Part shown: positions 33,233-56,958 of the stretch, in pieces
How the letters are laid out: each line of letters opens with the position of its first letter
Position numbering within the stretch: the stretch's first letter is position 1
From: Verrucomicrobiia bacterium
GTDB lineage: Bacteria; Verrucomicrobiota; Verrucomicrobiia; Limisphaerales; JAEYXS01
Direction of reading: 5' to 3'
Assembly (NCBI GenBank): GCA_036405135.1
Contig: DASWYF010000022.1
Span: 124,001 to 188,000 of the forward strand
DNA length: 64,000 nt
Position numbers and translations under genes: made by a program
Notes under the pieces: generated by a model
Told to the model about the DNA's origin: nothing
Databases searched by the model: none
What the model saw: the letters and a program-made list of their open reading frames with translations, nothing else

Positions 33233-33416
33233 GGCGGATTTCGAACGCGCCCACGACAGAAGATGGTCAGGATTTCGGGTTGAAATGGGGCTGGGCGACA
33301 GTCTTTACTGGGGAGGTAGCCTGTTTGGTACCACTTTTGAAGTCGAGAGGAAGTAGTGTGGCCGGATGGGATCGTGCGTGGCTGGTTCTTGCGCGAGGGA
33401 TGGGACGAATACCTGG

Positions 33417-34403
33417 ATGAAACTTTCGGTGATCATGTCGGTTTATAATGGTGAACGCTATCTGGCGTCTGCCATCGACAGCATTCTGGGGCAAACTTTC
33501 CGAGATTTTGAATTCCTGATCGTAGATGATGGTTCAAAGGATGGGACGGCGGACTTGCTGGCGAAGTATGCGCGAGAAGATCCACGGGTACACGTGGTGA
33601 CGCATGGGAAGAACAAGGGTTTGACGGCTTCGTTGAACGAATTGGTGCAGTTGGTGAAGGGGGAGTATCTGGCGCGGATGGATGCGGATGATGTGAGCCG
33701 GCCGGAACGGTTTGCGCGGCAGGTGGAGTGGCTGGACAATCACGCGGCTTGCGGGTTGGTGGGGAGCGCTTATACATTCATTGATCTGGAGGGAAGGGCG
33801 GGGATGACGTTCCGTTTCGAGAACGATCATCACTACTTGCAATGGTATCTGTGTTATCAGAATCCGCTGGCGCATCCGGCGGTGATGGGGCGGACAGCTT
33901 TGTTTCGTGCAGTGGGAGGTTATCGTGAGGAGTTCCGCTATGGGCAGGATTTTGATTTGTGGTGGCGCCTGAGTTTTACCACGCAACTGGCCTGCCTGCC
34001 GGAACCGCTGACGTTTGTAAGGCGGAATCCCACGGGCTTGAGCGGGGTGCATCAGCCTGAACAACTGGTGGCGAAGAGAAGGATTTTGACGGAAATGCTG
34101 CCGCGTCTGGGGATGAAGGACGTGGAGGAGGTTTTGCTGCGAGGTGCGCCGGGGGAATCCATCCGCAGGATTTATGCCTGCTTTTCCGGTAGGGAAGGGG
34201 TGTCCGAGAGAATCAAGGAGCTGATCCGGCGGGATTCCGCTGCCCGACTGGGGCTGATCTGGTTGCGCCATCCGTTTAAACGAGGTTCGGCAGAGGTTTT
34301 ACGGGATTCCTTGGCTTATTGCCCAGCGGTCCTTTTGCGGGGTGTATTCCAGATGGCATCCAGATGGTGTGTCAGTAAAGTGGACAATCCGATAATTAGG
34401 TAA
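33417..34403 (+). CDS. Family 2 glycosyltransferase
   Basis: A 328-residue GT2 with MKLSVIMSVYNGERYLASAIDSIL, FEFLIVDDGSKDGT, KGLTASLNELVQLVKGEYLARMDADDVSRPERF (DADD metal motif near residue 88), and YREEFRYGQDFDLWWRLS (the ED/QDFDLW acceptor motif). It is the last gene of the polysaccharide operon; a 184-base gap (33233-33416) precedes it, so it may have its own promoter. ATG 33417 begins the GT fold; the frame is open 51 bases further upstream without similarity. Confidence 0.9.
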   Translation: MKLSVIMSVYNGERYLASAIDSILGQTFRDFEFLIVDDGSKDGTADLLAKYAREDPRVHVVTHGKNKGLTASLNELVQLVKGEYLARMDADDVSRPERFARQVEWLDNHAACGLVGSAYTFIDLEGRAGMTFRFENDHHYLQWYLCYQNPLAHPAVMGRTALFRAVGGYREEFRYGQDFDLWWRLSFTTQLACLPEPLTFVRRNPTGLSGVHQPEQLVAKRRILTEMLPRLGMKDVEEVLLRGAPGESIRRIYACFSGREGVSERIKELIRRDSAARLGLIWLRHPFKRGSAEVLRDSLAYCPAVLLRGVFQMASRWCVSKVDNPIIR

Positions 34404-34720
34404 CGGAGGGGGTGGTGTGAATATGGACATATTTTGCTCAGTGATAAGTTTTTGTCTATATTTCTTTGCAATTTTCACTGGATAAGGTGTCCTGTTTTTG
34501 TTTGTGCTTTCGGATTTTGTCTTGACCTTGGGCGGTCTGCTGATTACCACACACGAAGCTGGAGGGGCTGCCTGTCTGGGGCCTCTGGGTAACAGGCGCG
34601 TGTCAGAGGCTCTGGGCGGTTAAAATCTCAAACATTATGAGCAGTAACATGGGGTCATTGTGTCTGGTAGGAGCGGTGCGTTCCGCAAAGGAGTCTTCTT
34701 TTAATTTTTCCAATTCTTTT
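34404..34720. promoter_or_regulatory. AT-rich leader region before the giant protein gene, with stem-loops
   Basis: The spacer starts with AATATG-GA-CATATT (34420-34433), runs through an AT-rich part (34436-34530, likely promoter), and contains GCCTCTG (34581-34587) matched by CAGAGGC (34604-34610), a 7-bp stem with a 16-base loop. AAAGGAG (34687-34693) lies 27 bases before the chosen ATG. The frame is open from 34637 but the residues before 34721 lack protein-like character. Confidence 0.4.
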
Positions 34721-37700
34721 ATGAAAAAAACTTTACTCACCTTGATGTTGGGCGTGCTGGTCGGTACGAGCGCGGCGACGGCAGCGACGGTGACGTGGCA
34801 GGGTGATGATTCGGCAGATTTTAATACTGGATCCAACTGGGATACCGGAAATCCGCCGGGTGTGGCGGATGATGCGGTGATACCGGCCTCGCCGGTCGGG
34901 CCGAATCTTGATCCGACGTCATCTGGTGCCATCAGTGTGTTGAGCATGAACATCGCGGCGGGGCGGACAGTGACGGCGACGGGGGGGAATGTCACGATCG
35001 GGGTGGGTGGTCTGACGGTGGCGGGGACGCTCTCGCATGCGAACCGGAGCCTGACGGTGAATGGGGCGACGGATATTCAGACGGGAGGTATTATAACCCG
35101 AACCTCGGGTGCGATCAATTTTGTAGGGGCACTTACAGTGGCGGGCACGTTGGAGGGCACGAGTGGTGGTACTACGGTGCGCAGCACGTGGACGCATACG
35201 GGTACTTTTACGGCTGGGACGGGAACTGTGACTTTTCAGGGCACTTCTGCTCAAGTGATTCCCGCCGTCAGTTTCAGTGGTGTGACGATCAATAATGCCT
35301 CTGGAGTGAGTTTGGATGCAGGGGTTGCGAATCCGTGGGTGCTAACGGGTACGCTGACATTGACGGCAGGTAACTTGAATCTTGGCGGGAGAAATTTATC
35401 GCTTGGTGGTGGCTTCACGGTGACCGGTGGCTCGATCACTGGTACGCCCAATGTGGAATTCACCGGTAGCGCGAATGCCACTTTTGGCGGCAGCGGCAGT
35501 TTGACGGTCAATGATGTCACCAGCAGCAGGACAGGTGGTACCATCACTTTGGGTGGTGATGTGACGGTGAATGGCAATGTCAATTTTGCCGGTGGCTCAT
35601 TGAGCCAGGGTGCGGCGGGTCGCAATCTGATTGGTGCAGGTGGCGCATTCAGTTTTACCGGAGCAACGCTCACGATTTTTGAGAGTGGCACAACGCCTTT
35701 CAGCACGGCATTCACGGGTTTTGCGGCCAGCCCGACGGTCACGGCAACCGCGGGTGTCACTTACAACCAGGCGGGTTCTGCCACGGTAGATTTGACCTCT
35801 TTCAACAGCAACCTGACGGTGACGGGCGGTGGTTCGTTTGTGTTGGGTGCGAACACCACGGTGGGCACCACGCTGACCATCGGAACGACGGCGGCGACTT
35901 CATTGAATGCCAGCGGCTTCAATCTGAATGTGGGGACGACGATGACGGTGAATAACGGGACTTCATTCAACGCGGGCAGCGGAACGATTACGGCTGCCGC
36001 CATCACGCTGGCCGGGGCCGGTCCTGCTTTTGATGCGGATACCGCGGTGATCAATGTGGATGACATCACGCTGGCGGGTGGAGCCGGTGCTTTCAATGCA
36101 GATGGTTCCACGATCAATATCGCGGATGATTTCGGCGGCACGGCTGCGGCTTTTAGCGCTGGTACGGGCACGGTCAACTTCGTGGGTGGGGCGGCGAACG
36201 ATCAGAACGTATTGCCCGGCATGAGCTTCAATAATTTCACGGTGAATGGTAACGCGACTGCGCGAGTGCTGGTTTCGGCGACGGGCACGGTGACGGTGAA
36301 CGGGGCGCTGAATGTGACGTCCGGCATCTTGGACGTCAATACGGCCACGACGCGGAATTTCTCCGGTGCCACCACCAGCACGCTGACGGTGGGTGCCAAT
36401 GGTACACTGCGTGTGCGTTCTACGGGAGCGACGCCGACCACGACGGATTATCAGAGCTTTGTGGCGATTGTGCGCGGTGCGGGCAGCACGGTGGAATATA
36501 TGGCGGCGACCACGCTCGACCTGAGCAGCTTCCATCACCTGATCATCAACGGGGCGGGAACTTTCACGTTGGGAGCAGCCACCACGGTGCAGGGCAATCT
36601 GACGCGCAGCGCGGGTAACTTGGATACGGGCAATTTTAACCTGGATGTGGATGGCAACCTGCTGGTGGGGGCGGGCACTTTGACGGCGGGGACATCGACG
36701 ATCAATGTGGGCGGGAACCTGACGGGTGCCTTCACGGGTACGAGCAGCACGGTGATCTTGGACGGCACGGGTGCGCAGTCCATCCAAGGTACGGCGAATT
36801 ACGGCAGCATACAAATTTCGGCCAATAACCGGACGGTGACGCCCACGGTCTCATTGACGGCGGCGGGGACTTTTTCCGTGGGTGCCAATGCGACTTATGA
36901 TTCGACCGGTTTCAGCCTCACAGTTGCGGGGGCAACGACCGTGGACGGCACGCTCAATATCCGGACGACGGGCGGAACGGTGAGTTTCTCCAGCCTGACG
37001 ATCAATAGCGGCGGTTCGGTGGTCTCCAGTGGCAACCAAGCAGTGACGGTCACGGGTGCCCTGGCTATTTCGGGTACATACAACGGCACGGCGGGTGGCG
37101 CGATCACGGTGGATGGCGGAGTTACGATCAATACCACGGGAACGCTGACACTGGGCAGCCAGGTGCTTACAATCAATGGTTCTGATTTTACACGCAATGG
37201 TTCGGGTGCATTCACGGCTGGAACTTCTACCGTTACTTTTGGAACGGGTGACAGTGCGGTGACGGGAACTTTCACGGGTGCCAACTCATTCAGCAGCCTG
37301 ACGTTGAGCAAGACGGCTGCAGGAAACACATTGACGGTCAATAACAACATCGCGGTTAGCGGTGTTCTGGCGGTCACGACGGGAACACTGATTCCCGGTG
37401 CGCAAACTGTCACGGTGACGGGCAATGTCACCAAGGGAACAAATGGTTCCATCACGCCGGGCACCAGCCTGTTTGTGTTCAACGGTTCGTCCCAGACGGT
37501 GGCAACATTGCTGACCTTCAATGATGTGGATGTGATTACGGGTTCCGGAGTGACGTTTGGGGCGATCACGGCAAATACGTTTGACATCGCCGCCACGACG
37601 GCGACGACGGTGAGCGTGGCGACGGGCGCGAACCTCGGGGCGGTCACGGTTGGTGACTTGGCCACGGTCACGGTCACAGGCACGGGTACGCTTACGGTCA

Positions 37701-40700
37701 GCAGCTTGAGCAATGATGGTGCCATCTCCTTCAACAGCACTGGCGGGCTGACGGCGACATCGGTTACACTGACCGGCAACGGTTCGCTTTCCACCACGTC
37801 CAGCGGTGCGTTTGTCATTCCAACACTGAATGTTCCCTCTGGTACAAGCCTGACACATGGCAGTGGTGCTTTCACGGTCAGCGGAACGGCGACCATCGGT
37901 GGTGCTTTCACCAAATCCTCTGGAGCTGTGTCGGTGGGAACCTTGGACTTGACGGCGAATGCGAATTACCAGCCGGGTTCGGGCAATGCGACCTATTCCA
38001 CGGTGACGATTGCCAATACGGCAACTTACGATACGACCACAGGCACAGGAACGGTGGCGGTCAATGGCAACTTGACGATCGCCGGTTCGTTTGACGCAGC
38101 GGATGGCACGGGGACCTACACGGTGACTGGCAATGTGGAGTTGCAGAGCACGGGCAGCTTCACCATCGGCACGCGCACATTGGACATCGTGAACGGCAAC
38201 TGGACCAAGGTAACGGGTAGCACGTTGACGGCGACTGGTTCGACCGTTTCCTTCACCGGCACTACGGCCAATACCGTTACCGGTATTACAACGTTCAATA
38301 ACCTGACGTTGAATAAATCCAGCAACGGCCTGACGGTGTTTGATGACATCACGGTGGCCAACCTCGTGTTGACCGCAGGAACGCTGACGTTTGATACGGG
38401 CAATGCGGATGTGGAAACAGTGACGGTCAGCGGCAACATCACCCGCACGACCGGTTTGATCACGGCAGAGAATTCTAAATTCCTCTTCACTGGCACCGGC
38501 CAGACGGTTGCTTCTGGGCTGACCTTCTTTGATGTGGAAATCGCCAATGGAGCTTCGGTGGCGACCTTCGCAGCAACCACCATCACGGGAACGCTGACGA
38601 CGACCGGAACGGGTTCGGTGAACTTCTCGGGGGATTCCAGCGTGGCGAACATCGTCAACAACGGCGCGATGAGCTTCAACACCAACGTGGATATCACCAC
38701 GAGCGGCAATATCACGAACAGTGGTACCATGACGTTTGCGGGCGCGGGCACGATCAACATTGCGGGGAACTGGACCGGCAACGGTTTGGCGACGGGTGGC
38801 ACGCCGACGGTGACGGTGAGCGGGAATGACTCCACGCTGGTAGGCAGTTACTATAACTTAGTGATCGCCAAAACAGCCGGACAGACAGCATCGGCGAATG
38901 GTGCGGTGACGGTGTTGAACACGCTGACTTTGACCTCTGGCACACTAGATATGAATGGCAACGGACTGACGCTGCAAGGTGTTGGCACAGCCGCAGTTAT
39001 CAATGGTGCCGATGGCACGGTGTTCTTGGCTGATGGCGGCACGGTGACATTCAGCGGCTCAGGCACTGACAATGATATTGATCTGACGGCCGGTACGGTG
39101 ACGTTCCACCATGTGGTGGTCAACAAGGGTACGGGCAATAAACTGGATGTGCAGACTGCGATCGCGGTGACGGGCGACCTGACGGTGACCTCCGGTATCT
39201 TGGACATCGACGCCCCGGTGACGGGAACTGCGGTGACGGGGAATGTTTCCATTGCGGGCAATGGACAAATTCTCCTTGGTACGCGCACGCTGGCAGTGGC
39301 TGGCACGAGCTTCACAGTGAATGGAACTTTCAGTTCAGGTGCCACGGGCACGTTGCTCTTGAATGGCAGCGACAATGTGGCATTCGGAGGCACGACGGAT
39401 CCTATCACCTTGGGCAATTTGACAGTGAGCTTGGCTGATTCCACCGATACAGTGGATCTGGCGCAGAACATCACGGTGTCTGGTTCCATCAGCATCACGG
39501 AAGGTATCTTGGACGCCAGTGGCAATACGGTGGCGGTCACGGCGGACATCGCGGTGCAGACGGGCGGCCAGTTCACTGCGGGTACGACGACTACGGTGGG
39601 TGATGACATCCAGATGGATGGCGGCAGTTATCTGGCGGGTGCGGGAGCGACCTCCATCACCGATGACCTGCAATTGAATGGTGGTACATTCAATGCCGGT
39701 TCCGCCACGACGACGATCTCTGGTAGTATCACAGGTTCAACGGGTGGCGGTTTCACGAAGGGCAGCAGCACGGTGCGTTTCATTGGTGCAGGCACTGAAA
39801 CGGTTATTGTCGATGTGATCTTTAACAATGTTTTAGTGGAGCGTTCGGCGACGTTGACGATTAACAACCTCGGCACATTCGATGTGGATGGCACACTGAC
39901 GATCAATAACAACGCGGCGGCGACGACGGTGTCTGCCGGTGCGACTGATGTGACGGGCGCGGTGCTTATCACCTTGGGCCGGTTCGATACGAGCGGGACG
40001 ACTACGATGGGATCTTCTCTGAACATCGTGGATGGCGAGTTTGAGAACTTGGAAGCGAATGTGACTGTCACCGGAGCAGTGACTGTGGGTGATACACTGG
40101 CAGCCGCTGCCTTGCTTGATTTGGGGTCGCAAACGTACAGCTTCGGCAGTCTGACGGTGGCTGTGACGGATGGCACGGTGACGCTGGCGAGCGGTTTCAA
40201 CCTGAGCACGACGGGTGCGATGACGGTGAATGGAACTTTCGGTACGGTGAACGCCCAAGGCACGTTGACGGTGGGCGGTGCCTTCTCCATGGCGAGCACA
40301 GGCGTAGTATTCCTCGGTACGGGTGACCCGACGGTCACATTCAACGGCACGGTGACCATCCCCTCGGGAGCAAGCTGGACCTCGGATGTCACGAGCATCA
40401 CCATGAACGGTGCGAGCTGGACGCAAGGGGCGCTCCTGACGGTGAATGCGACCTCGAGTGTGACATTCGGCGGAGGCATCGCACAGAACATCGTTTCCGG
40501 AACGTTCCCGAACTTGGTGATCAACAAATCGGCGAATGCGGCGACGCTCTCGAGTGCGACGATTGTGGTGTTGAACAATTTGACGCTGACGGCTCCGGCG
40601 GCGGGCTTGAATCTGAACACCCGTCAAATCCAGGTGGCAGGCAATATCTTGGGCACGGGCAATGTCATCACGGGGCCGACAGGTAACAGCCAGATCCGTT

Positions 40701-43700
40701 TCAACGGCACGGTTACACAGACGATGGTAAGCGGCATCACCGTCAGCCAGTTGGTGTTGGATGGTGTGGGAAACACAGTGCAGGTGCCTTCGGGCGGCAT
40801 CACGGTGAACACTTCCATCACGGTGCAAAACAGCAGCACACTGGACCAGGTGGCGGCAGGGCGGACCATCTCGGGTGACGGCAGCACCAGCTTTGTAATG
40901 TCAACCACGGGCGCCACACTGCGGTTGTATGAGAATTTCAGCTCGATGTTCCCGACAGTAACGATTCCGGCCTCCGTGAGCGGCACGGTAGATTGGTTGG
41001 CAACGATTGGCGTGAACGTGGAACTCTTGAGCATGCGGAATGTCACCTTCGGCGGCACGGGTACCTATGCCCTGACGGCTGATACGACGGTGAACAGCGG
41101 TTCCGGTCTGGCACAGGTGACGGCGGGGGCCCGCCTGAACACGGGTTCGTTCAACCTGTTGGGAACGGGCACGTTCACTTTGAATGCCAACGGTACGCTG
41201 GGCATCGGCTCAGTGGACGGCATCACGGATTCGGGCGCCACGGGCAATATCCGGACGACAACGCGTAATTACAGCACTAACGGCATTTATTCCTACAACG
41301 GCAGTGCGTTGCAGGTAACGGGTAATGGTTTGCCGGGTGATGCCGGACAGCGGGTGTTGCGTCTTTCCATTGATAACGCCAGCGGTGTGGTGCTGAGCCA
41401 AAGCACCACGGCTTCCAACCTCACCTTCTCAGCGGGTCACTTCTTCACCAGCCCGGCGGGCTCGCCGATCGTGATGACGGTGACGAATGTGACGGGCAGC
41501 ACTGGTGCACTTGCTCACGTGGTAGGCCAGTTGGCCAAGCCGTTCCCCACGGTGGTGAATGACCAGAGCTTTACCTTCCCCGTGGGTGATGGCACGAACT
41601 ACACGCCGGTCATCGTCACGGACATCGACATCACGGGGCCGGGACGCTTGGTGGCTTCAGCCCGGACGAATTACGTCGGCTCGAGCGAGGCCAGCTATCC
41701 GCCAGCCGTGGTGAGCAGCCAGCAGGTGGCGGGTCTGAACAAGGACACGATCTTGAACCGCTCATGGACAATCGACTTCCTTGATGGATTTACGGGTGAT
41801 TTCGATCCCCAGTTCGCCTTCTTGGATACTGATGTGACGGCTTTGACGGTCAACACGGAGGAAAGCAAGTTTGTCATCCGCCGTTACAACGAGGATGTGA
41901 ACGGTCTGGGTGAACAATGGTTCGGCACGACATTTGGCGCCCGCGTGACGGGGGCTGTCCCGAGTGTGAGGGCAAATGAACTGGATAAAGCCGGTGACTT
42001 CATCGTCGGTGCCCAGGCTCCGGCCCAGTATACATTCAATCTGGGTGCGGGTGTGATCGGCTTCAAGACCAACGTGGTGAGCAACATCACGGTGGACATG
42101 GCGGATTATATCGGTGAACCGCTGGCGTTCGGCTTTGCCAACCGCAACTTGCAATTCGCTGTGGCTCCGGTGACTGGTGCTCTTGGCGGGTTAAAGCTGG
42201 ATGTGATCTCGGGCGCAGGTTTCCAGGAATGTTACACCACAAACAACGTGAATTCGGGTATCACGATCAAGGCGTTGGGCACGGTGCCCGGCTCTTACAC
42301 GGTGGGTGTGGTGGATAACCAGTCACCGGCTGGCGCAGGTGCCCAGACGGTGTTTATCGGCATCGGACCCACGGCGGCCAATGGCGGTTCGACGGCTGAT
42401 TTCGACGGCAGTGGCATGTATGGCCTGACGCCCAACCTGTATAACTCCGGTTCATGGAACGGCTTCACTCCGGGTCAGACTGGACATGAGGCGGTGACGG
42501 TAGAGATGTGGTTCCGGGCGGATGCCGCCGGTGTGCTCTTGGATGAGCGCGGTGCCGCTGACCTGAAAGGTTTCCGCGATTCATGGATCGAGCTGGTTCA
42601 GGTTTCCCCGGGTGTGCTGGATGTGCGCTTGCGCGTGTGGAACTTGCCGACGTATCCGACCACGGGCCTTTCACTGGGCACGGTGGGCACGAACACATGG
42701 AACCATGTGGTGCTGCGTTATAGCGAGTCCGGCTCCGGCACGTTGGATGGTTTCTTGAATGGCGTGAAATCGGGCAGTTCAGTCACGGGTGATCGCACGA
42801 CTCCGATCGAGAACGGTGCAAGTGGCATCTACTACGGTCTGGGCCTGGCGAACACGACGCACTTGGGCAGTGGTGCTGCTTACGATGGCAGCATGGACGA
42901 GGTGCGTATCTGGAACATCGCCCGCTCGGATGCGGAGATTTTGGCCAATTGGAACAAGACGGTGGATCCGCAATCGGCCAACTTGCTGGCTTACTATCGC
43001 TTCGAGGATGGTGTGGGCACCATCATGGCGGATGAGACGGCCAATGATAACTTCATCAGCGTGGTGGGTAACACGCCGGTGTGGGGTGCGTCTGGAGCCA
43101 TGACCAACGCGGCTTCCCGGACGTTCACGATGCTGGATACTGAGGTGCTGACAATCGCCCTGAACGGGTATGACCCGGACAATACGGGGGCGATGTTCGC
43201 CCAGGTCCGCGGATTGACGGGTACCAACACAGTGGCCCAGTTGCAGCAGACCAACGGTATGGCGATCGGCAGCGGGTTCGTGACGGTCTCCAACCAGTTG
43301 GTGCATATCGACGGCCTCACTCCGGGTACCATGACCTTCGAGTATCGCGTGAACAACGGCATCGCGGTTTCGGCCTCGGTGACAATGACGGTGAATGTGC
43401 TGAGCGCTGCGAACGCGGTGCCCACGCTGACACCGACGACGGTGACGAAGACGGGCAATGAAGATTCGGCCATCACCATCAATTACAGTGATGTGATCTC
43501 TGGTTTGACGGGCATGAGTGTCTCGGACGGTGACGGCCCAAGCACGGTGGTGCTGGTGCTGCAGTCCGTATCTTCGGGCACGTTGCTGAAGGCGGGCAAT
43601 CCGGTGACGAACTTTGTGACCACGCTGGCCACGGGCCAGAGCTTCACATGGACGCCGCCGATGAACTATACCGGCACGACAAACGCGTTCACGTTCAAGG

Positions 43701-45253
43701 CTTATGACGGCCAGAACTACTCAGTGACGGGTACGGCGCAGGTGATAGTCAGCCCGGTGGGGGATGCCCCGATCGCCCAGTTTGTGAGCACGGCGCTGGA
43801 GCTGAACGGTACGAACTATCTGTTCACCCCTAACCTCCGCAACAAGTTCACGGATGAGACAGTGACGTTGGAATTGTGGTTCCGTCCAAGCACGAACAGC
43901 CTGGGTAACTTGAACCCCGGTGTGCTGATCTCCGAACGCGGCCAGAACGGTCTCAACGGCTGGCGCGCCAGCCAGATCGAGTTGTTGCAAACGGGCGAGA
44001 TCAAGGCACGCGCTTGGAACCTGACCTCGCTCTCGCTGGGGTATGTGCAAACCAACAACTGGAATCATGTGGTGGTCCGCTACAACAAGGCGACCAGCCG
44101 CACGGAAGGTTTCTTGAATGGTGTGAAGGCGGTCGGGTTCGTGCCGGGTGACCGCACGGCTCCATGGGAAGGCGGGGCAACTGGCGGCTTGTTCTACGAC
44201 GTGGGTGCCATCAACAACTCCTCGGCCAACTTGGGCACGACGGCCTACTTCAAGGGACATGTGAACGAGTTCCGCATCTGGTCGGTGGCCCGTTCTGATT
44301 CCCAGATCACCAACAGCTACCCGGGCCAACCGATCAGTGCTGAAACCGGCTTGGTTGCTTGGTATCAACTGGATGATGCCTTGGTGGCAACGACGGCGGA
44401 TGACTCCAGCAGCAATGGCTTCGATGCCTCACTGCTGGCTGGCACTGGCGGTACGGCAGCCAAGTTCGTAGAGGTGCCGGTGGAAGCGCAGATCGGAGGC
44501 GCGGATGTGCTCGTGAAGCTGGATGCTTATGATGTGGATACGGCGCAGACGGGTCTGACGTGGTATATCACGGAAGCTCCGGCACATGGCACGCTCTATC
44601 AGAACATCTTGGGCAGCTTGGGCTCCCAGATCAGTGCGCCGCCATCCACGGCTCTGCTGACTTACGCGTTGAGCGGTGGCAAGGTGTTCTACACACCACC
44701 GGCCTCAGGTGCATTCACTACGGATTCATTCAAGTTCCAAATCAGTGACGGTTCCCAACTGTCGGCTGAGATCACGGTGAATATCGTCTTTGGTGACGGT
44801 GTGGCGGTGATGAACTTCGTGGGTGGTTCCTCATCCACTTCCATGGGCAAAGGCAAGGCGCAGTTGAGTTCCGTCAGCTCTGGTGCTGCGGGTGTGCAGA
44901 CATCCCGGTTCAGCCTGAGCAGCAGTGGTGCGACATCCTCTGGCGTGCTGTTCCCGCTTTCGGCGGTGATCACCGCGCCGGTTGAGGGTGGTGTGGGCCT
45001 GACGGGTGAGTCCTTGAACGTCACGGTTCAGACGGCGGGCGTGACGAGCCCAATGACCCGGGTGGACATCCTCGCCAATGGCGTCTGGATTGGCCAAGCC
45101 GTCCCGACCGGCGACGGTGTTTATGAACTCGCAATCGACGGTTTGGCAGCGGGTGATTACGAACTCACAGCCGTTGTCTCAGATGCAGCCAGCAGCGGTG
45201 GAGTGTCAGCTCCGGTGAACGTATCGGTTTACGATCTGAAGCCTGGCCAATAA
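34721..45253 (+). CDS. Giant secreted beta-repeat protein with LamG and cadherin-like domains
   Basis: About 3510 residues. The signal peptide starts MKKTLLTLMLGVLVGTSAATA. The N-terminal two thirds (to about residue 2245) is an array of beta-strand modules rich in Gly, Thr, Val, Asn. A recurring motif (for example GTFTAGTGTVTFQGTS, TLTATGSTVSFTGT, GGFTKGSSTVRFIGAG, each leading to a F-N-x-x-x-I/V-N segment) appears at least ten times. Next come a region around FPVGDGTNYTPVIVT (2280-2440), a LamG-like domain (about 2559-2777), a cadherin-like domain (about 2903-3017), a second LamG-like domain (about 3026-3224), another cadherin-like segment (about 3264-3360) and a final Ig-like domain. No autotransporter barrel, LPXTG or PEP-CTERM tail is visible. 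It is probably a surface adhesin or stalk-like fibre. An intrinsic terminator follows. Confidence 0.85.
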   Translation: MKKTLLTLMLGVLVGTSAATAATVTWQGDDSADFNTGSNWDTGNPPGVADDAVIPASPVGPNLDPTSSGAISVLSMNIAAGRTVTATGGNVTIGVGGLTVAGTLSHANRSLTVNGATDIQTGGIITRTSGAINFVGALTVAGTLEGTSGGTTVRSTWTHTGTFTAGTGTVTFQGTSAQVIPAVSFSGVTINNASGVSLDAGVANPWVLTGTLTLTAGNLNLGGRNLSLGGGFTVTGGSITGTPNVEFTGSANATFGGSGSLTVNDVTSSRTGGTITLGGDVTVNGNVNFAGGSLSQGAAGRNLIGAGGAFSFTGATLTIFESGTTPFSTAFTGFAASPTVTATAGVTYNQAGSATVDLTSFNSNLTVTGGGSFVLGANTTVGTTLTIGTTAATSLNASGFNLNVGTTMTVNNGTSFNAGSGTITAAAITLAGAGPAFDADTAVINVDDITLAGGAGAFNADGSTINIADDFGGTAAAFSAGTGTVNFVGGAANDQNVLPGMSFNNFTVNGNATARVLVSATGTVTVNGALNVTSGILDVNTATTRNFSGATTSTLTVGANGTLRVRSTGATPTTTDYQSFVAIVRGAGSTVEYMAATTLDLSSFHHLIINGAGTFTLGAATTVQGNLTRSAGNLDTGNFNLDVDGNLLVGAGTLTAGTSTINVGGNLTGAFTGTSSTVILDGTGAQSIQGTANYGSIQISANNRTVTPTVSLTAAGTFSVGANATYDSTGFSLTVAGATTVDGTLNIRTTGGTVSFSSLTINSGGSVVSSGNQAVTVTGALAISGTYNGTAGGAITVDGGVTINTTGTLTLGSQVLTINGSDFTRNGSGAFTAGTSTVTFGTGDSAVTGTFTGANSFSSLTLSKTAAGNTLTVNNNIAVSGVLAVTTGTLIPGAQTVTVTGNVTKGTNGSITPGTSLFVFNGSSQTVATLLTFNDVDVITGSGVTFGAITANTFDIAATTATTVSVATGANLGAVTVGDLATVTVTGTGTLTVSSLSNDGAISFNSTGGLTATSVTLTGNGSLSTTSSGAFVIPTLNVPSGTSLTHGSGAFTVSGTATIGGAFTKSSGAVSVGTLDLTANANYQPGSGNATYSTVTIANTATYDTTTGTGTVAVNGNLTIAGSFDAADGTGTYTVTGNVELQSTGSFTIGTRTLDIVNGNWTKVTGSTLTATGSTVSFTGTTANTVTGITTFNNLTLNKSSNGLTVFDDITVANLVLTAGTLTFDTGNADVETVTVSGNITRTTGLITAENSKFLFTGTGQTVASGLTFFDVEIANGASVATFAATTITGTLTTTGTGSVNFSGDSSVANIVNNGAMSFNTNVDITTSGNITNSGTMTFAGAGTINIAGNWTGNGLATGGTPTVTVSGNDSTLVGSYYNLVIAKTAGQTASANGAVTVLNTLTLTSGTLDMNGNGLTLQGVGTAAVINGADGTVFLADGGTVTFSGSGTDNDIDLTAGTVTFHHVVVNKGTGNKLDVQTAIAVTGDLTVTSGILDIDAPVTGTAVTGNVSIAGNGQILLGTRTLAVAGTSFTVNGTFSSGATGTLLLNGSDNVAFGGTTDPITLGNLTVSLADSTDTVDLAQNITVSGSISITEGILDASGNTVAVTADIAVQTGGQFTAGTTTTVGDDIQMDGGSYLAGAGATSITDDLQLNGGTFNAGSATTTISGSITGSTGGGFTKGSSTVRFIGAGTETVIVDVIFNNVLVERSATLTINNLGTFDVDGTLTINNNAAATTVSAGATDVTGAVLITLGRFDTSGTTTMGSSLNIVDGEFENLEANVTVTGAVTVGDTLAAAALLDLGSQTYSFGSLTVAVTDGTVTLASGFNLSTTGAMTVNGTFGTVNAQGTLTVGGAFSMASTGVVFLGTGDPTVTFNGTVTIPSGASWTSDVTSITMNGASWTQGALLTVNATSSVTFGGGIAQNIVSGTFPNLVINKSANAATLSSATIVVLNNLTLTAPAAGLNLNTRQIQVAGNILGTGNVITGPTGNSQIRFNGTVTQTMVSGITVSQLVLDGVGNTVQVPSGGITVNTSITVQNSSTLDQVAAGRTISGDGSTSFVMSTTGATLRLYENFSSMFPTVTIPASVSGTVDWLATIGVNVELLSMRNVTFGGTGTYALTADTTVNSGSGLAQVTAGARLNTGSFNLLGTGTFTLNANGTLGIGSVDGITDSGATGNIRTTTRNYSTNGIYSYNGSALQVTGNGLPGDAGQRVLRLSIDNASGVVLSQSTTASNLTFSAGHFFTSPAGSPIVMTVTNVTGSTGALAHVVGQLAKPFPTVVNDQSFTFPVGDGTNYTPVIVTDIDITGPGRLVASARTNYVGSSEASYPPAVVSSQQVAGLNKDTILNRSWTIDFLDGFTGDFDPQFAFLDTDVTALTVNTEESKFVIRRYNEDVNGLGEQWFGTTFGARVTGAVPSVRANELDKAGDFIVGAQAPAQYTFNLGAGVIGFKTNVVSNITVDMADYIGEPLAFGFANRNLQFAVAPVTGALGGLKLDVISGAGFQECYTTNNVNSGITIKALGTVPGSYTVGVVDNQSPAGAGAQTVFIGIGPTAANGGSTADFDGSGMYGLTPNLYNSGSWNGFTPGQTGHEAVTVEMWFRADAAGVLLDERGAADLKGFRDSWIELVQVSPGVLDVRLRVWNLPTYPTTGLSLGTVGTNTWNHVVLRYSESGSGTLDGFLNGVKSGSSVTGDRTTPIENGASGIYYGLGLANTTHLGSGAAYDGSMDEVRIWNIARSDAEILANWNKTVDPQSANLLAYYRFEDGVGTIMADETANDNFISVVGNTPVWGASGAMTNAASRTFTMLDTEVLTIALNGYDPDNTGAMFAQVRGLTGTNTVAQLQQTNGMAIGSGFVTVSNQLVHIDGLTPGTMTFEYRVNNGIAVSASVTMTVNVLSAANAVPTLTPTTVTKTGNEDSAITINYSDVISGLTGMSVSDGDGPSTVVLVLQSVSSGTLLKAGNPVTNFVTTLATGQSFTWTPPMNYTGTTNAFTFKAYDGQNYSVTGTAQVIVSPVGDAPIAQFVSTALELNGTNYLFTPNLRNKFTDETVTLELWFRPSTNSLGNLNPGVLISERGQNGLNGWRASQIELLQTGEIKARAWNLTSLSLGYVQTNNWNHVVVRYNKATSRTEGFLNGVKAVGFVPGDRTAPWEGGATGGLFYDVGAINNSSANLGTTAYFKGHVNEFRIWSVARSDSQITNSYPGQPISAETGLVAWYQLDDALVATTADDSSSNGFDASLLAGTGGTAAKFVEVPVEAQIGGADVLVKLDAYDVDTAQTGLTWYITEAPAHGTLYQNILGSLGSQISAPPSTALLTYALSGGKVFYTPPASGAFTTDSFKFQISDGSQLSAEITVNIVFGDGVAVMNFVGGSSSTSMGKGKAQLSSVSSGAAGVQTSRFSLSSSGATSSGVLFPLSAVITAPVEGGVGLTGESLNVTVQTAGVTSPMTRVDILANGVWIGQAVPTGDGVYELAIDGLAAGDYELTAVVSDAASSGGVSAPVNVSVYDLKPGQ

Positions 45254-45282: not shown

Positions 45283-45310
45283 GGGGGGAAGCCAAACTTC
45301 CCCCCTTTTT
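45283..45310 (+). terminator. Intrinsic terminator after the giant protein gene
   Basis: GGGGGGAAG-CCAAA-CTTCCCCCC (45283-45305) is a perfect 9-bp stem followed by five T. It ends transcription of the giant gene and rules out a translation start at 45281 for the next one. Confidence 0.9.
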
Positions 45311-45349
45311 CGTTTTCACGCGCGTTGCATGTTTGTAAGTTACCCATTG

Positions 45350-47287
45350 ATGAGCGGTCAGCGTGCAGCATTTAACACTGAAGGCAGACGCAGTTTCCTG
45401 CTATGGGGGCTGGTGATGTTGATGGGGGTGGTGTTGCCGGTTGTGGGTGAAATATCCTCCCCACTGGTGTTTGATTGGAAGAAGGTAGCCAGCGTGTATG
45501 CCGGGCGCATCGACCAGTTGAGAGCGGTGACGACGGATACGGCAGGCAATACATATCTTGTAGGCGCTTCTGCCAGTGAAGTGCAGGGATTGAATCTGAT
45601 CACCTTGAAACTGGGTCCAGCGGGGCAGGTGCTTTGGCAGGTTGAGTATGATGGCGAGGGTGGTGATGACATTCCAAACGCGGTGGTCGTCAGCCTGGAT
45701 GGGGATGTCTATGTCACTGGCAGTTCGATCAATGGTGCGGGAAATACGGATATCGTGACCCTCCGTTACACAGAGGAAGGCAGTCCATCACCTTTCTGGT
45801 CTGATGATGGAGCGGGAGATGGCGTCAGACGTTATGATGGTGATGTAAGCGGTTTTGACAGCGGCTTGCAGGTGCTGGTGGATGCAAATGGTTCCGCGTA
45901 TGTGGCTGCGGGTTCGGCAGGGCCGGGGACTTTTTCCGACATCCTTTTGCTAAAGTATAGTTTGAACGGGGTTCTTTTTTGGGAGGTCCGGTATGATGGC
46001 CCCGGTCATTTCACGGATACCCCCAAGAGCTTGAAGTTCACCGCCAGCGGCAATCTGCTGGTCTTGGGGGAATCCGCCGGGGATGGCACGGAGGCCGACT
46101 GGGTTTTACTGCAGCTTGATGTGAATGGGAATCCCGCATCGGCTTGGCCTGATGCGGGCTCTGGTTCCGGAGTGAGGCGTTATAACCACAGCGGCACCAG
46201 TTTCGATGTGCCTGCGGCCATGCAGAGCGACGGCAGTGGAGCAGTGTATGTGGCCGGGACGGTGACTACGAGCGGGGCAAAAGATATTGTGGTGGCAAAG
46301 TTCAATCCAGCAGGTGTGCTGGCCTGGGCTACAAGTTATAACGGAGAAGGCACTCGCAATGATGAAGCTGTGTCTTTGGTCCTGGATACCACTGGTGATG
46401 TGATCGTGGCGGGGAACACGGACAGGTCTGTTTCCGGATGGGACATGGTGCTGTTGCGGTTGACGGAGACGGGAAATTATTCCTCTGTCTGGGCTGATGA
46501 GGGTGATGGCGCGGGGGTGCGACGTCACGCCAGTGATGGTTCAGTTACAGATATGGCTACAGGGGTGGGCTTGGGTGCTGGCGGTTACTTATATCTGGGG
46601 GGATATTCCTTTGCCGCCGCCACGGCAGATGATGCTTGGGCATTGGTTTACCGGCGGGATGGGACTTTTCTGGGAGGCATCTCATTTGATGATGAAACGG
46701 GAGCGAGTGAACGGCCGATCCGTCTTTTGCTGGCGTCTGGTGACCGGCTGATCATGGCGGGCACGAGTTTTGGCAGTTCTGGAGAGGATGATCTTTTTGC
46801 GGTGAGTTTTGGGATCAAGCCGTTGCTGGATCTGGTCGCAGATCATGCTGTAGTGACCACCGGTAAAGCGCGGGTTTTCTCTCTCCCCATGGCGAATCCC
46901 TCTGCTTACACTTATCAATGGTTTCGTAATGGAGAAATCCTAGCAGGAGCGGATGAGCATATGCTGACTGTCTCTGTGCAAGGAGCGGGACAATCCGGAG
47001 AATATACGGTGACGGTGGGGAATGATTTTGGGTTGATGGAGTATGTGGCCGGTGAAATCACCCACTTGGCCACGAGTTGGACATCAGTGAGCGGGACTGA
47101 ACTCAGGTTGACGGGCAAATCCGGCGCACGCTTGCTGGTGGATCATGCTGACAGCGTGACTGGGGGCATTATATGGTCGCCAGTAAATGACATCACGCTG
47201 GGTGCTGGCACCAGCATTGTCACGGATGCCGGGGCGAGCGGCTTGCCACGGCGATTTTACCGTGTCAGACGGGTAGCCAATGAATGA
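45350..47287 (+). CDS. Secreted beta-propeller protein with an Ig-like and a C-terminal sorting-type tail
   Basis: The protein (645 residues from ATG 45350; ATG 45329 is possible) has an N-terminal signal peptide (SFLLWGLVMLMGVVLPVVGE). A seven-bladed-like array follows (about 35-495), with blade repeats such as DTAGNTYLVGAS, SLDGDVYVTGSS, DANGSAYVAAGS, TGDVIVAGNT, each with KDI(V)-type strands, resembling SBBP/delta-60-type repeats. An Ig-like domain (about 510-575, YTYQWFRNGEILAGADEHML) and a final module ending SGLPRRFYRVRR, common in verrucomicrobial secreted proteins, close it. It is probably a cell-surface binding protein. Confidence 0.78.
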   Translation: MSGQRAAFNTEGRRSFLLWGLVMLMGVVLPVVGEISSPLVFDWKKVASVYAGRIDQLRAVTTDTAGNTYLVGASASEVQGLNLITLKLGPAGQVLWQVEYDGEGGDDIPNAVVVSLDGDVYVTGSSINGAGNTDIVTLRYTEEGSPSPFWSDDGAGDGVRRYDGDVSGFDSGLQVLVDANGSAYVAAGSAGPGTFSDILLLKYSLNGVLFWEVRYDGPGHFTDTPKSLKFTASGNLLVLGESAGDGTEADWVLLQLDVNGNPASAWPDAGSGSGVRRYNHSGTSFDVPAAMQSDGSGAVYVAGTVTTSGAKDIVVAKFNPAGVLAWATSYNGEGTRNDEAVSLVLDTTGDVIVAGNTDRSVSGWDMVLLRLTETGNYSSVWADEGDGAGVRRHASDGSVTDMATGVGLGAGGYLYLGGYSFAAATADDAWALVYRRDGTFLGGISFDDETGASERPIRLLLASGDRLIMAGTSFGSSGEDDLFAVSFGIKPLLDLVADHAVVTTGKARVFSLPMANPSAYTYQWFRNGEILAGADEHMLTVSVQGAGQSGEYTVTVGNDFGLMEYVAGEITHLATSWTSVSGTELRLTGKSGARLLVDHADSVTGGIIWSPVNDITLGAGTSIVTDAGASGLPRRFYRVRRVANE

Positions 47288-50044: not shown

Positions 50045-50802
50045 ATAGGCAAGACAGGGAGAAGCTCGTAAGTTTATTACGCCCCGCGAAACGCATCTTG
50101 ATTTTCACGGGTGCGGGTGTTTCCACGGGCAGTGGCATTCCAGATTTTCGCGGGCCGAACGGGGTGTGGAAGAAGCGGCAGCCGGTTTATTATGATGACT
50201 TCATCCGGTCGGAGAAGGCACGTATCGAGCATTGGGATTTCAAGCTGGAGGGTTGGGAAGGTTTTCGAGATGCGCAGCCGAATGAAGCGCATCGGGCGAT
50301 CGTAGAATTGGAGAAAGCAGGACGGCTGGAGATGCTAGTGACGCAGAATATCGATGGGCTTCATGCCAAGGCGGGAAATTCGGCGGAGAAGATCATCGAG
50401 CTGCACGGGACCAATCTGCTCATCGAATGTCTGACGTGTGATGAACGTACGGACCCGCAAGCGCATTACGATTTTTTTAAGCGGACGCGCAAGCCGCCCA
50501 TGTGTCATTGCGGAGGCTTGCTCAAGCCAGCGACCATCAGCTTCGGGCAGAATTTGTGCGAAAGGGATATCGATCAGGCAAATCTTGCTGCGTGGCGCTG
50601 TGACCTGGTCATCGCCTTGGGATCATCGCTATCCGTATATCCGGCTGCTACGGTGCCGATGGTGGCGGCGCGTAATGGCGTGCCTTACGTCATCATCAAT
50701 CAAGGGGTGACGGAGCATGACCATGCGCGGGAAGTGAGTCTGCGCATTGAGGGAGATGTGAGGGATTATCTGCCGCAGGCGGTGACTGAAATTGTTAGTT
50801 GA
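50041..50802 (+). CDS. NAD-dependent protein deacylase (Sir2/sirtuin)
   Basis: A 253-residue sirtuin. Motifs: [21 protein letters not shown] (NAD loop), [14 protein letters not shown], the catalytic His in IELHGTNLL, the zinc cysteines of CLTC...[30 protein letters not shown] and VIINQG. It removes acyl groups from protein lysines using NAD. TTG 50041 is the start, overlapping the transporter stop (TTGA) and preceded by GGAAAGGAAGGA. Its residues before RILIF match the usual short sirtuin N-terminus. The linkage with an SBF-like transporter is unexplained. Confidence 0.93.
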
Positions 50803-51061
50803 TTTGTTTTTAGCCACTGCTTGGAGAGGCAGCCTACGTTGCTTATGGACGATGCCTTTCCCCTCATCCCGGCCTTCTCCCCTAGGAGAAGGAGTTAGCA
50901 TTTACAGTGCAAGTGACAGGTTGATAGCTGTCCGGTTCGCGTCTCGGGATAGTCATAGACACGTAACGGAAACGTCACTGTGGAGGGGTTGTTCTGACAT
51001 CATTCATCGTCCATGTTGCGCGGCCTTGTTCGCAAATTTTGCGCACAAGACTTGTTGTAAC
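50803..51061. repeat. Spacer with a CCTTCTCC hairpin before the pseudopilin gene
   Basis: CCCCTCATCCCGG followed by CCTTCTCC-CCTA-GGAGAAGG (50873-50892), an 8-bp perfect stem, is the third copy of the element at 872 and 25720. The remaining 170 bases have no gene and should carry the promoter of the pseudopilin gene. No clear -35/-10 pair is visible. Confidence 0.6.
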
Positions 51062-52030
51062 ATGAAAATGAAATGTCGTATTGAAACCTCCCGTCGTAGT
51101 ACACCCGCTGGCTTTACCCTTGTGGAATTGCTGGTGGTCATCGCCATCATCGCCATCCTCGCAGGCATGCTTTTGCCTGCCTTGAGCAAGGCGAAACAAA
51201 AAGCCGCCCAAACCTCCTGCATGAACACCATGAAGGGGCTCGGCACAGCCATGCACATGTATCTGGGCGATGCCCAGAATGAGATCCCGTATGCCCGCTT
51301 CACGATGAACGGTAACAAGGAAGGCCTTTGTTGGGATGACTTGCTGCAGCCTTATCTGGGTGGCACCGCGTCGCTGGAACAACTCAGCGGAAACTACTAC
51401 ACCAAGACAAACAACCACGCCTTGAAATGGGCACAGTGCCCGGCGGACAAAGTATCGCCCACATCAGCCAATGCGGTGCGTCGCAGCTATTCGCTGCCGC
51501 AGCATGCGGGACCGCGGGCGTTTGCACCGGCGTTTGATACCCTTATCTGGCCGCCCAGCCAGATCAGCCGCAGCGGTGTGGGCCTGTGCCTGCAACAAGG
51601 CGCCATTGAAGGCACCACCACCGGACCTAACGGCATGGGCGGAGCCACCTGGAAGGCAGATGCGAACCCGAACAGCATCAACAACACCGCCACCGCCACC
51701 ACGGATGCGTGGAAGATCCGCGGTCAACGCGCCATCAGCGCAGCGCTGGTTACGGATACCGTGGCCACCTTTGCCATCGTGGAGCGCATCCATCCGGGCA
51801 ATTACGCCGGGCAATCGTTCTACGGCGAGGTCCCGAACTCCGATTACCAGTTCGACAGCGGCAACGTGGCCCTCGGTTTCCCGAACGGCTCCCATCACGG
51901 TGCCGATTCCTACAACTACCTCATGATGGATGCCCATGTAGAATTCCTTGGCCGGAACTTCACCCTGGGCCAGACCAATCTGCTCACCAGCAAGCAGACC
52001 GGCATGTGGTCCATCACGGCGAAAGACTAG
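51062..52030 (+). CDS. Type II secretion/type IV pilin-like prepilin (verrucomicrobial pseudopilin)
   Basis: A 322-residue protein. A basic leader ([17 protein letters not shown]) precedes the prepilin-peptidase site [29 protein letters not shown], with cleavage before Phe. The rest (about 50-322) is the variable globular domain typical of PVC-group pseudopilins, with C-terminal [17 protein letters not shown], a version of the H-x9-DG end motif. It is likely to be inserted in the membrane and processed by PilD-type peptidase, and to be part of a secretion or surface-display system. ATG 51062 is fixed by the leader length. Confidence 0.9.
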
Positions 52031-53209: not shown

Positions 53210-53439
53210 GCTCTCTGCACTCGCTTGGCACGCCCAGGGGACCGGCGGCGATTTTAAGCTGAGCGAGCAATGGAGCCATCGGGCGGGAAGGGCTGGGAGC
53301 AACGTCCGAACTTCACTCCACCCTTCGACGCGAATTCCGCGAATTGGGGTAGGGTTTGGGCTGGACCAGAGGGAGGGGGTGGGGCATTAAACAGGGGCCA
53401 ACCCGAGGAACACGGAATCACAACGGGGGCAATCACCAG
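53210..53439. promoter_or_regulatory. Intergenic region before the restriction operon
   Basis: No gene is seen in these 230 bases. The frame is open for a while ahead of hsdM but is G-rich and unlike a protein. A promoter for the hsd operon must lie here. A weak candidate is TTGGGG (about 53345) with a poor -10, so it is only noted. Confidence 0.3.
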
Positions 53440-54894
53440 ATGTTTGAACAAGCTTTCAGGAATATTGACGACGCTCTCAGGAAAGAGGCGGGGTGTACCA
53501 CAGAGCTAGACTATACGGAGCAGACGTCGTGGTTGCTGTTTTTGAAGTACCTGGATGGGTTGGAGCAGGACAAGGCGGATGAGGCCAAGATGGAAGGGAA
53601 GAGATACCAATTCATCTTGGATAAGGATTATCGTTGGGAGAGTTGGGCGGCTCCGAAGGACAAGGATGGGAAGATTGACCATAACAAGGCGCTGAGCGGG
53701 GATGACTTGACGGAGTTTGTGAACAGGAAACTGTTCCCCTATCTGCAAGGGTTCAAGGCTAAGGCGACGGGGTCGAATACGCTGGAGTACAAGATCGGGG
53801 AAATCTTTGGGGAGATTAAGAATCGCATTCAGAGCGGATACAATCTGCGGGACATCATTGATCATATTGATGAACTGCGGTTCCGCTCGCAGACGGAGAA
53901 ACATGAGCTGAGCCATCTGTATGAGGCGAAGATCAAGAACATGGGGAATGCGGGGCGGAATGGCGGGGAGTATTACACGCCGCGTCCGCTCATCAGGGCG
54001 ATGATTCAGGTGGTGAAGCCGAAGATTGGGGAGACGATCTATGACGGGGCGGTGGGTTCGGCGGGGTTCTTGTGCGAGGCGCATGATTACCTATCGCAAG
54101 GGAAGCTGACGACGAAGGATTTACAGACGTTGCAGACGCGGACGTTTTACGGGAAGGAGAAGAAGTCACTCGCGTATGTGATCGCCATCATGAACATGAT
54201 TCTGCATGGGATTGAGGCACCGAATATCGTGCACACGAATACGCTGGCGGAGAATCTGGCGGATATTCAGGAGAAAGACCGGTATCATGTGGTGCTGGCG
54301 AATCCGCCGTTTGGCGGGAAGGAGCGGCCGGAGGTGCAGCAGAATTTCCCGATTCGCACGGGAGAGACGGCGTTTCTCTTCCTGCAACACTTTATCAAGA
54401 TACTGAAGGCGGGCGGGCGCGGAGCCATTGTCATCAAGAACACGTTTCTTTCCAATTCCGACAATGCCTCGGTGAGTTTGCGGAAGCTGCTGTTGGAGAG
54501 TTGCAACCTATATACAGTGTTGGATTGCCCGGGGGGGACGTTCCAAGGAGCCGGGGTGAAGACGGTGGTGCTGTTCTTTGAGAAGGGCGCGCCGACGCGA
54601 AAGGTGTGGTTCTACCAGCTAGACCCGGGCCGCAGCTTGGGTAAGACGAACCCGCTGAATGACGATGACTTGGCGGAGTTTGTGAAACTGCAGAAGACGT
54701 TTACCGATTCTCCCAAGAGCTGGAGCTTGAATGTAAAAGATATTGATGCGGAAACGTATGACCTTTCGGTGAAGAACCCGAACGGAGGCGAAGAAGTGAC
54801 GCATCGCAGCCCACAGGAGATTATGGAGGAGATTGCTGCCTTGGATATGGAAAGCGCGGAGGTGTTGGGAAAAATTAGGGGGCTGTTGAGATGA
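53440..54894 (+). CDS. hsdM: Type I restriction-modification system M subunit
   Basis: A 484-residue N6-adenine methyltransferase. The HsdM N-domain (MFEQAFRNIDDALRKEAGCTTELDYTEQTSWLLFLKYLDGLEQD) is followed by AGRNGGEYYTPRPLIRAM, the SAM motif DGAVGSAGFLCEA (usual DPACGSGGFL) and the catalytic LANPPFGGKERPE near residue 285. It methylates host DNA as part of M2S complexes and is needed with HsdR for restriction. The stop overlaps the hsdS start (ATGA). ATG 53440 is the conserved start; the frame is open further upstream without similarity. Confidence 0.95.
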   Translation: MFEQAFRNIDDALRKEAGCTTELDYTEQTSWLLFLKYLDGLEQDKADEAKMEGKRYQFILDKDYRWESWAAPKDKDGKIDHNKALSGDDLTEFVNRKLFPYLQGFKAKATGSNTLEYKIGEIFGEIKNRIQSGYNLRDIIDHIDELRFRSQTEKHELSHLYEAKIKNMGNAGRNGGEYYTPRPLIRAMIQVVKPKIGETIYDGAVGSAGFLCEAHDYLSQGKLTTKDLQTLQTRTFYGKEKKSLAYVIAIMNMILHGIEAPNIVHTNTLAENLADIQEKDRYHVVLANPPFGGKERPEVQQNFPIRTGETAFLFLQHFIKILKAGGRGAIVIKNTFLSNSDNASVSLRKLLLESCNLYTVLDCPGGTFQGAGVKTVVLFFEKGAPTRKVWFYQLDPGRSLGKTNPLNDDDLAEFVKLQKTFTDSPKSWSLNVKDIDAETYDLSVKNPNGGEEVTHRSPQEIMEEIAALDMESAEVLGKIRGLLR

Positions 54895-56057
54895 AGAAGG
54901 GGTGGCAACGGAAAAGATTGGATGAAGTATGCGAAATCAGCATGGGGCAAAGCCCTGATGGTGACAGCTACAACACGACTGGAGAAGGCGTGCCGCTCAT
55001 CAATGGCCCGGTAGAGTTCAGTGATGAATCTTTTGGCGAGACAATTCGTTCCAAGTTCACCACTGAGCCCACGAAATTCTGTAAGAGAGGTGATCTTATC
55101 CTGTGTGTTCGAGGTTCGACGACTGGGCGAATGAACATAGCTGGCTTTGATGCTTGTATTGGACGTGGTGTGGCTGCCATCCGAGCTAAGGAATATCAGC
55201 CATGGATCAATCACTTCATCAATTCCAAGCGGGATGAGATTCATGGGAAAGGTACAGGAGCTACTTTCCCTAACGTTTCAGGCGCAACGTTAGCTGGCTT
55301 TGAATTGATCATGCCTCCGATTGATGAGCAGCGGCGGATTGTGGGGGTGTTGGATGAAGCGTTTGCCGGGTTGGCGACGGCCAAAGCCAACACCGAAAAG
55401 AACCTCCAAAACGCCCGCGCCATCTTTGAAAGCCACCTCCAATCCGTCTTCACCCAGCGCGGCAAAGGTTGGGTTCAATCAAAACTGGACGACGTATGCG
55501 GATTTCAGAACGGATTTGCATTTAAGAGCAACACTTTTAAGCCATCAGGTGTCCCGATTCTGCGTATTTCTAATATTCAAGATGGCCGAGTTGATACTGA
55601 TAACAGGCTCGTTTTTTTTGACCCTAAAGACTACAAGGAGAATCTAGACAGATATCGGGTGGTTGAGAATGATCTGCTGATAGCGATGTCAGGTGCAACT
55701 ACAGGAAAACTTGGATTCAACACCCAGAGAACAGTCTCTTATTTGAATCAACGGGTTGGAAAGTTTGAGCCGGGAGAAAAACTCAACAAGCGTTTTCTTT
55801 ATCACTTTCTTTCCACAAAAGTTGAGGAGAATCTTCGTATTTCAGCAGGTGCAGCTCAGCCCAATTTAAGCACGGAACAAATCAAAGGATTTATGCTGCC
55901 GCTGCCAGCTATTGATGAACAAACACGCATCGTTGAAACGTTCGAAACTTTGCAGTCTAAAACCCAACGCCTCGAATCCATTTACCAGCAAAAGCTCGCC
56001 GCGTTGGAGGCCTTGAAAAAGTCGCTGCTGCATCAGGCTTTCGAAGGGAAGCTTTAA
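54891..56057 (+). CDS. hsdS: Type I restriction-modification system S (specificity) subunit
   Basis: A 388-residue HsdS with two target-recognition domains in tandem (about 1-190 and 195-388), each ending in the conserved region PPIDEQRRIVGVLDEAFAGL and PAIDEQTRIVETFETLQSKTQ, followed by a helix (the spacer coiled coils). TRD1 has CEISMGQSPDGDSYN and TRD2 has GFQNGFAFKSNTFKPSG. The two halves recognise a bipartite DNA site. The second TRD and the following gene are AT-richer than hsdM/hsdR, as is common for exchanged specificity cassettes. The start ATG overlaps hsdM by four bases. Confidence 0.93.
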   Translation: MKKGWQRKRLDEVCEISMGQSPDGDSYNTTGEGVPLINGPVEFSDESFGETIRSKFTTEPTKFCKRGDLILCVRGSTTGRMNIAGFDACIGRGVAAIRAKEYQPWINHFINSKRDEIHGKGTGATFPNVSGATLAGFELIMPPIDEQRRIVGVLDEAFAGLATAKANTEKNLQNARAIFESHLQSVFTQRGKGWVQSKLDDVCGFQNGFAFKSNTFKPSGVPILRISNIQDGRVDTDNRLVFFDPKDYKENLDRYRVVENDLLIAMSGATTGKLGFNTQRTVSYLNQRVGKFEPGEKLNKRFLYHFLSTKVEENLRISAGAAQPNLSTEQIKGFMLPLPAIDEQTRIVETFETLQSKTQRLESIYQQKLAALEALKKSLLHQAFEGKL

Positions 56058-56059
56058 GA

Positions 56060-56944: not shown

Positions 56945-56958
56945 AATTCATTAAGGTT

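Follow-up and report, generated by a model that had tools for sequence, protein, structure and literature searches.

The 3510-residue protein analysed here, encoded in a 64,000-nucleotide stretch of a Verrucomicrobiia genome (the window), is probably an extracellular rod, made of a beta-helical stalk and a LamG/cadherin/Ig head, that leaves the cell by none of the known tag-dependent routes tested; we assign this reading a probability of about 0.6. It draws on an open frame, repeat modules, domains, a lack of known tags and a genomic complement of export machines, all of which are observed. In the proposed mechanism, the signal peptide would direct Sec export, the N-terminal array of ~2,200 residues would form a right-handed beta-helix stalk of ~50 nm, and this stalk would hold out the C-terminal LamG, cadherin-like and Ig head, which is predicted to bind polysaccharide or other surfaces. 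The outer membrane would be crossed through a secretin-type (T2SS-like) exit or by an unrecognised route. The features of the gene and of its surroundings are the following:

34721-45253, + strand: giant protein gene, 3510 aa, an open frame with an alternative upstream ATG at 34637
34721-34783, + strand: Sec-type signal peptide, 21 aa, without a lipobox Cys, by inspection only
35207-40813, + strand: array (aa 163-2031) with 11 copies of a ~45-aa module that are recognisable by HMM; probably a right-handed beta-helix stalk, from a model of aa 644-1326
41072-42046, + strand: conserved region past the array (aa 2118-2442), before LamG 1, without a Pfam family
42482-42940, + strand: LamG domain 1 (PF13385)
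43805-44308, + strand: LamG domain 2 (PF13385), 44.5% identical to a Bacteroidia protein (MAG)
44516-44785, + strand: Cadherin_3/Big_9 domain
44963-45235, + strand: C-terminal Ig-like domain (Big_3_5/Big_7/Big_6, each below its curated cut-off)
45283-45305, + strand: terminator-like hairpin with a T run behind it, separating the giant gene from the one downstream
45329-47287, + strand: next gene, a delta-60/SBBP beta-propeller protein with an FYR tail
47075-47275, + strand: FYR tail of this beta-propeller protein, scoring 50 bits and stopping 3 aa short of the C-terminus

Read from its first ATG, the open frame covers 34637-45253, but the start taken in the earlier note, ATG 34721, gives the better gene (34721-45253), because it opens a Sec-type signal peptide (MKKTLLTLMLGVLVGTSAATA). 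The most hydrophobic 19-mer of the whole protein lies in this signal peptide region, and the sole Cys is residue 2504. A hairpin of terminator type, with a T run, begins 30 bases past the stop, so the missing anchor of the giant is not the result of an obvious frameshift; ATG 45281 just precedes this hairpin and is therefore an unlikely start for the next gene, 45329 being likelier. With the frame, the signal peptide (by inspection), the modules and the domains all seen, the initial description of a giant, secreted, modular protein holds.

All ten module positions given in the earlier note are real according to the HMM, and one further copy is present at 36731 (36.7 kb), the complete set starting at 35207, 36152, 36731, 37211, 37451, 38225, 38459, 39023, 39752, 40451 and 40682. 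The HMM was seeded with nine copies and tested against 200 shuffled arrays, and added two copies, aa 1911-1948 with 12.2 bits (7.1 for the best of the 200 shuffled arrays) and aa 1988-2031 with 3.0 bits. When each of the 11 copies was held out in turn and compared with 300 shuffled arrays, eight were equalled by 0-4 of the shuffles, and those at aa 671, 831 and 1988 were indistinguishable from them (199, 89 and 24 of 300, respectively). The copies are 15-44% identical to the first one and no tandem repeat was found in the array at the DNA level, which together indicate that the array is old; self-BLAST of the giant returned no significant internal HSP, since the repeats are too diverged. A loose consensus pattern has 28 matches against a shuffle mean of 6.0 and a maximum of 13, and a strict one 3 against 0. 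Matches were counted over the full protein and shuffles over the first 2330 residues, where 27 of the 28 lie; the HMM was preferred. In composition the array favours Thr, Gly, Ala, Val, Ser and Asn and has little Lys, and the substitution-score autocorrelation has one of its two highest values at lag 20. The hydrophobic periodicity spectrum does not rise above shuffles, and the conserved N-cap seen by eye (the W...NW region of relatives) is not significant, scoring 3.3 bits where shuffles reach 7.2. A literature search of limited scope found no report of the module in titles or abstracts.

AlphaFold2, run on the single sequence of aa 644-1326 (683 residues), produced an all-beta model with a mean pLDDT of 55 (<50 for 260 of the 683 residues, 50-70 for 317 and 70-90 for 106), in which ten-residue means are 60-82 across most of model residues 361-520 and highest within aa ~1013-1163. 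Foldseek returned nothing under E 0.001 for this model, the best match being the Hap adhesin (0.069). When the best part of the model was compared by VIA-align with Foldseek's best 93 chains, known right-handed beta-helices gave Z scores of 12-16, with the HxuA secretion domain at the top (Z 15.7, 197 aligned residues, 2.9 Å), and including tapirin (Z 15.6), Ag43 (Z 14.0) and EtpA (Z 12.5); these chains are Foldseek's own matches only, and the absence of a fold from them is uninformative. The structure prediction suggested for the repeat array thus yielded an all-beta model with one part at pLDDT 70-82, but most of the model is below 70 and the Foldseek search was not significant. We consider it likely, from this model, that part of the array folds as a right-handed beta-helix, and from that one modelled part the fold may extend along the whole ~2,200-residue array. 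A beta-helix rung takes ~20-22 aa and rises 0.48 nm, and simple arithmetic on ~2,200 residues would then give a stalk ~50 nm long.

Profile search bore out the two LamG and the cadherin/Ig-like domains described for the C-terminal part, PF13385 reaching 78 bits against a curated cut-off of 27.6, in two stretches. The PDB sequence search with the giant gave one weak match, of a neuronal pentraxin to LamG 2 (E 0.008). The region at aa 2118-2442 is common to 6 of 196 genomes, the organism's own included, at 34-36% against the giants of relatives in the order.

Of 146 genomes of the order, again counting the organism's own, 11 have the module, in frames of 530-15029 aa that are mostly long. Module-bearing giants are found in G142 (5716 aa), G127 (6690 aa), G069 (2775 aa), G020 (3055 and 3486 aa) and G075 (2936 aa). 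They are like the giant in their module, of which each has between 8 and 28 copies scoring above 8 bits; some also share its conserved region past the array, whereas their C-termini are unlike its own: an FYR tail is present in the 3486-aa protein of G020 and, weakly, in G069, while the giant ends in LamG/Ig domains. The giant is one of a mosaic family of module-bearing proteins that occur here and there in the order and end in different ways. No module over 8 bits was found among 80 genome-contig loci of LamG-cadherin-LamG relatives. PVC bacteria are known to have giant proteins of a similar type, extracellular mosaics that include beta-helix or cadherin/Ig domains, although neither the module nor the FYR tail is described in the accessible parts of those papers (PMC12057145, PMC11573180).

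Several other long frames carry such repeats or domains. The 5716-aa module protein of G142 (L150, G142:C40) has a 787-aa super-repeat present ~5 times, with module starts at 1093, 1880, 2667, 3454 and 4241; a 15029-aa frame (G070:C46) has one weak module match (E 8.9e-4); and a 6099-aa frame (L148, G000:C31) has at least four LamG domains and, as judged by eye, RHS/YD-type repeats towards the end of the stretch that was fetched.

Regarding export, no autotransporter barrel, sortase motif or PEP-CTERM tail was found in the giant with Pfam and NCBIfam profiles and on inspection of the C-terminus, in agreement with what had been noted from the sequence, and the profile search recognised no known C-terminal sorting domain or anchor. 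The T5a barrel PF03797 is absent from the giant and from its genome, and occurs in 6 of 58 genomes of the order at E<=0.001. The genome encodes three exosortases and four secretins, of which two are nearest to GspD (324 and 206 bits against a cut-off of 351) and the other two have their best match in the Amuc_1098 type IV pilus family. We know of no general T2SS sequence signal, and what would remain for the outer-membrane step is passage through a secretin, as in a T2SS, or a route that has not been recognised. The earlier note had seen pointers to a phylum-specific system in the nearby pseudopilin and in the type of C-terminal domains of the giant; neither pointer is supported, the pseudopilin (50792-52030, DUF1559, with a weak Verru_Chthon match) being a separate gene at a distance of ~5.5 kb for which no link to the giant was demonstrated, the Ig domain being generic, and LamG and cadherin domains being common to Bacteroidota too.

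Proteins of the TpsA/filamentous haemagglutinin type (T5b) are like the giant in size, Sec signal, long imperfect beta-repeats and probable right-handed beta-helix, and one of them is encoded in the same genome, where a 5950-aa TpsA (PF05860, 1.6e-24) is directly followed by a TpsB (G000:C28:41919-61543; L147, L192), the latter at C28:60446-61411 (E 1e-24) and the single ShlB match of the genome. The giant could accordingly be an unorthodox client that this TpsB exports without a recognised TPS domain, a reading with which the resemblance of the modelled array to TPS beta-helices (HxuA, Z 15.7; EtpA, Z 12.5) and one weak module match in the C28 TpsA frame (E 0.0013) are consistent. Unlike TpsA-type proteins, the giant has a LamG/cadherin/Ig head, and it lacks a TPS domain, with no PF05860/NPXG match at E<=10 in the Pfam scan, which does find this domain in the C28 TpsA, and none in NCBIfam. 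It also lacks an adjoining TpsB: a Pfam scan of 30 window ORFs showed neither a TpsB/ShlB nor any other outer-membrane transporter. The TPS domain is, according to the accessible part of one account, what two-partner secretion recognises (PMC5422565), which also counts against such a client. A classic two-partner pair elsewhere, an alternative raised beforehand, does exist on C28, but given the missing TPS domain it is not the explanation for the giant, and we regard export by this TpsB as unlikely.

LamG mosaics are typical of extracellular proteins, and a rod of ~50 nm would be longer than the usual width of the periplasm. Both points argue against the giant staying inside the outer membrane as a periplasmic structural or scaffold protein, a reading that would fit the finding of no outer-membrane export or anchor signal in it. 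Cadherin and Ig domains in such mosaics likewise point outwards, cadherin and Big_9 domains being typical of extracellular proteins in the accessible part of one report (PMC11573180), and a periplasmic location seems to us about as doubtful as export by the C28 TpsB.

The LamG-cadherin mosaic of the giant is shared with large Bacteroidota proteins that carry TIGR04183 tails, and of the genome-contig loci that best match its LamG-cadherin-LamG part (80 of 199 were kept), most are from Bacteroidota. TIGR04183 scored above cut-off in eight of eight such relatives, chosen by eye from their tails, after viewing, from 14 listed of 58 complete C-termini. If the giant were a T9SS-type cargo like these relatives, a tail and a translocon would be expected; unlike them, it has no T9SS C-terminal tail by NCBIfam profiles, and SprA_N is absent from its genome in a search that was positive in three of three Flavobacteriia genomes (SprA was found in 0 of 58 genomes of the order, in a search where no control gave a match). 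This reading is already largely refuted, and we consider it very improbable. It is just as improbable that the C-terminal Ig is itself a new sorting domain, as its place at the very C-terminus and the similar domains in 62 of 196 genomes (own included) could suggest, because such domains, which match Big_3_5/Big_7, are internal in 19 of 19 relatives' loci, some in tandem, and terminal only in the giant (20 loci fetched; internal meaning at least 28 residues after the domain, mostly at least 500, with the frame outrunning the fetched stretch in most loci), so that by sequence comparison the terminal Ig is generic.

The giant is encoded downstream of methyltransferases, a flippase-type protein and glycosyltransferases (the one at 33366-34403 identified by eye). 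Behind it come genes for the beta-propeller protein, a hydrolase, a transporter, the DUF1559 pseudopilin and a cytochrome, and a type I restriction-modification system at window positions 53356-59352, which comprises HsdM, HsdS, a DUF4357 protein and HsdR.

The beta-propeller protein ends in what we call the FYR tail, a C-terminal domain of ~65 residues with the pattern G..Y.V....L....W....T..G....TD....P.RFYRV, for which the giant gives no profile match. A search seeded with five tails, all terminal by choice (A3), gave 22 matches in the organism's own genome; of 20 genomes of the order, 19 have the tail (0 to 73 matches each, with none in G009). In all 30 loci fetched from the best matches, 0-5 residues separate the match from the stop. 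An internal copy was seen in L121, in a protein that also bears a terminal one. The frame start is visible in eight of the 30 loci, with a signal-like hydrophobic stretch seen by eye in seven, and the remaining one (L161) looks truncated. At E<0.01 the tail is found in 2 of the 80 genome-contig loci, both labelled Verrucomicrobiota, with three copies in L116 and one in L047; the latter, an Akkermansiaceae relative, has no TIGR04183 above cut-off and ends in an FYR-like tail (20 bits). Tails were seen in Pedosphaera and Akkermansiaceae MAG loci.

NCBIfam recognises none of 13 FYR tails and Pfam gives scattered single weak matches only; PDB profile matches are weak, a structure model from three sequences has a pLDDT of 48, and no title or abstract in our literature search of limited scope reports the tail. 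Among module-bearing relatives with a stop, it is present in the 3486-aa protein of G020 (80 bits), G014 (37), G086 (23) and G069 (10), and by eye only in G142, which was a seed of the search (A3); the profile is unmatched in the 3055-aa protein of G020, in G127 and in G075. The 3055-aa protein of G020 (L122) and that of G127 (L194) share by eye another terminal domain, ending ...GF..GTN...., possibly a second type of tail.

The FYR tail may be the lineage's own sorting domain. As to the suggestion of a phylum-specific system, a C-terminal domain found across the lineage is thus present on the neighbouring gene and on some module relatives, but not on the giant. One could go further and suppose that the order has its own FYR-marked C-terminal secretion or anchoring pathway, in place of the Bacteroidota T9SS tail, that the module-bearing beta-helix giants use it, and that the present giant, which has no such tail, either lost it or is kept at the surface by a tailed partner, for which the adjoining FYR-tailed beta-propeller would be the obvious candidate; we put this forward as a speculative and rather improbable scheme.

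The giant would in itself be one more large mosaic surface protein of an already known kind. The negative set matters more, since with the tags excluded and the machines counted in the same genome it makes a clean test case for the export of beta-helix giants in this lineage. The FYR tail is abundant and terminal, has no Pfam or NCBIfam family, and offers a tangible entry point to what may be a sorting system specific to the lineage; its presence beside the giant is a more interesting lead than the giant itself.
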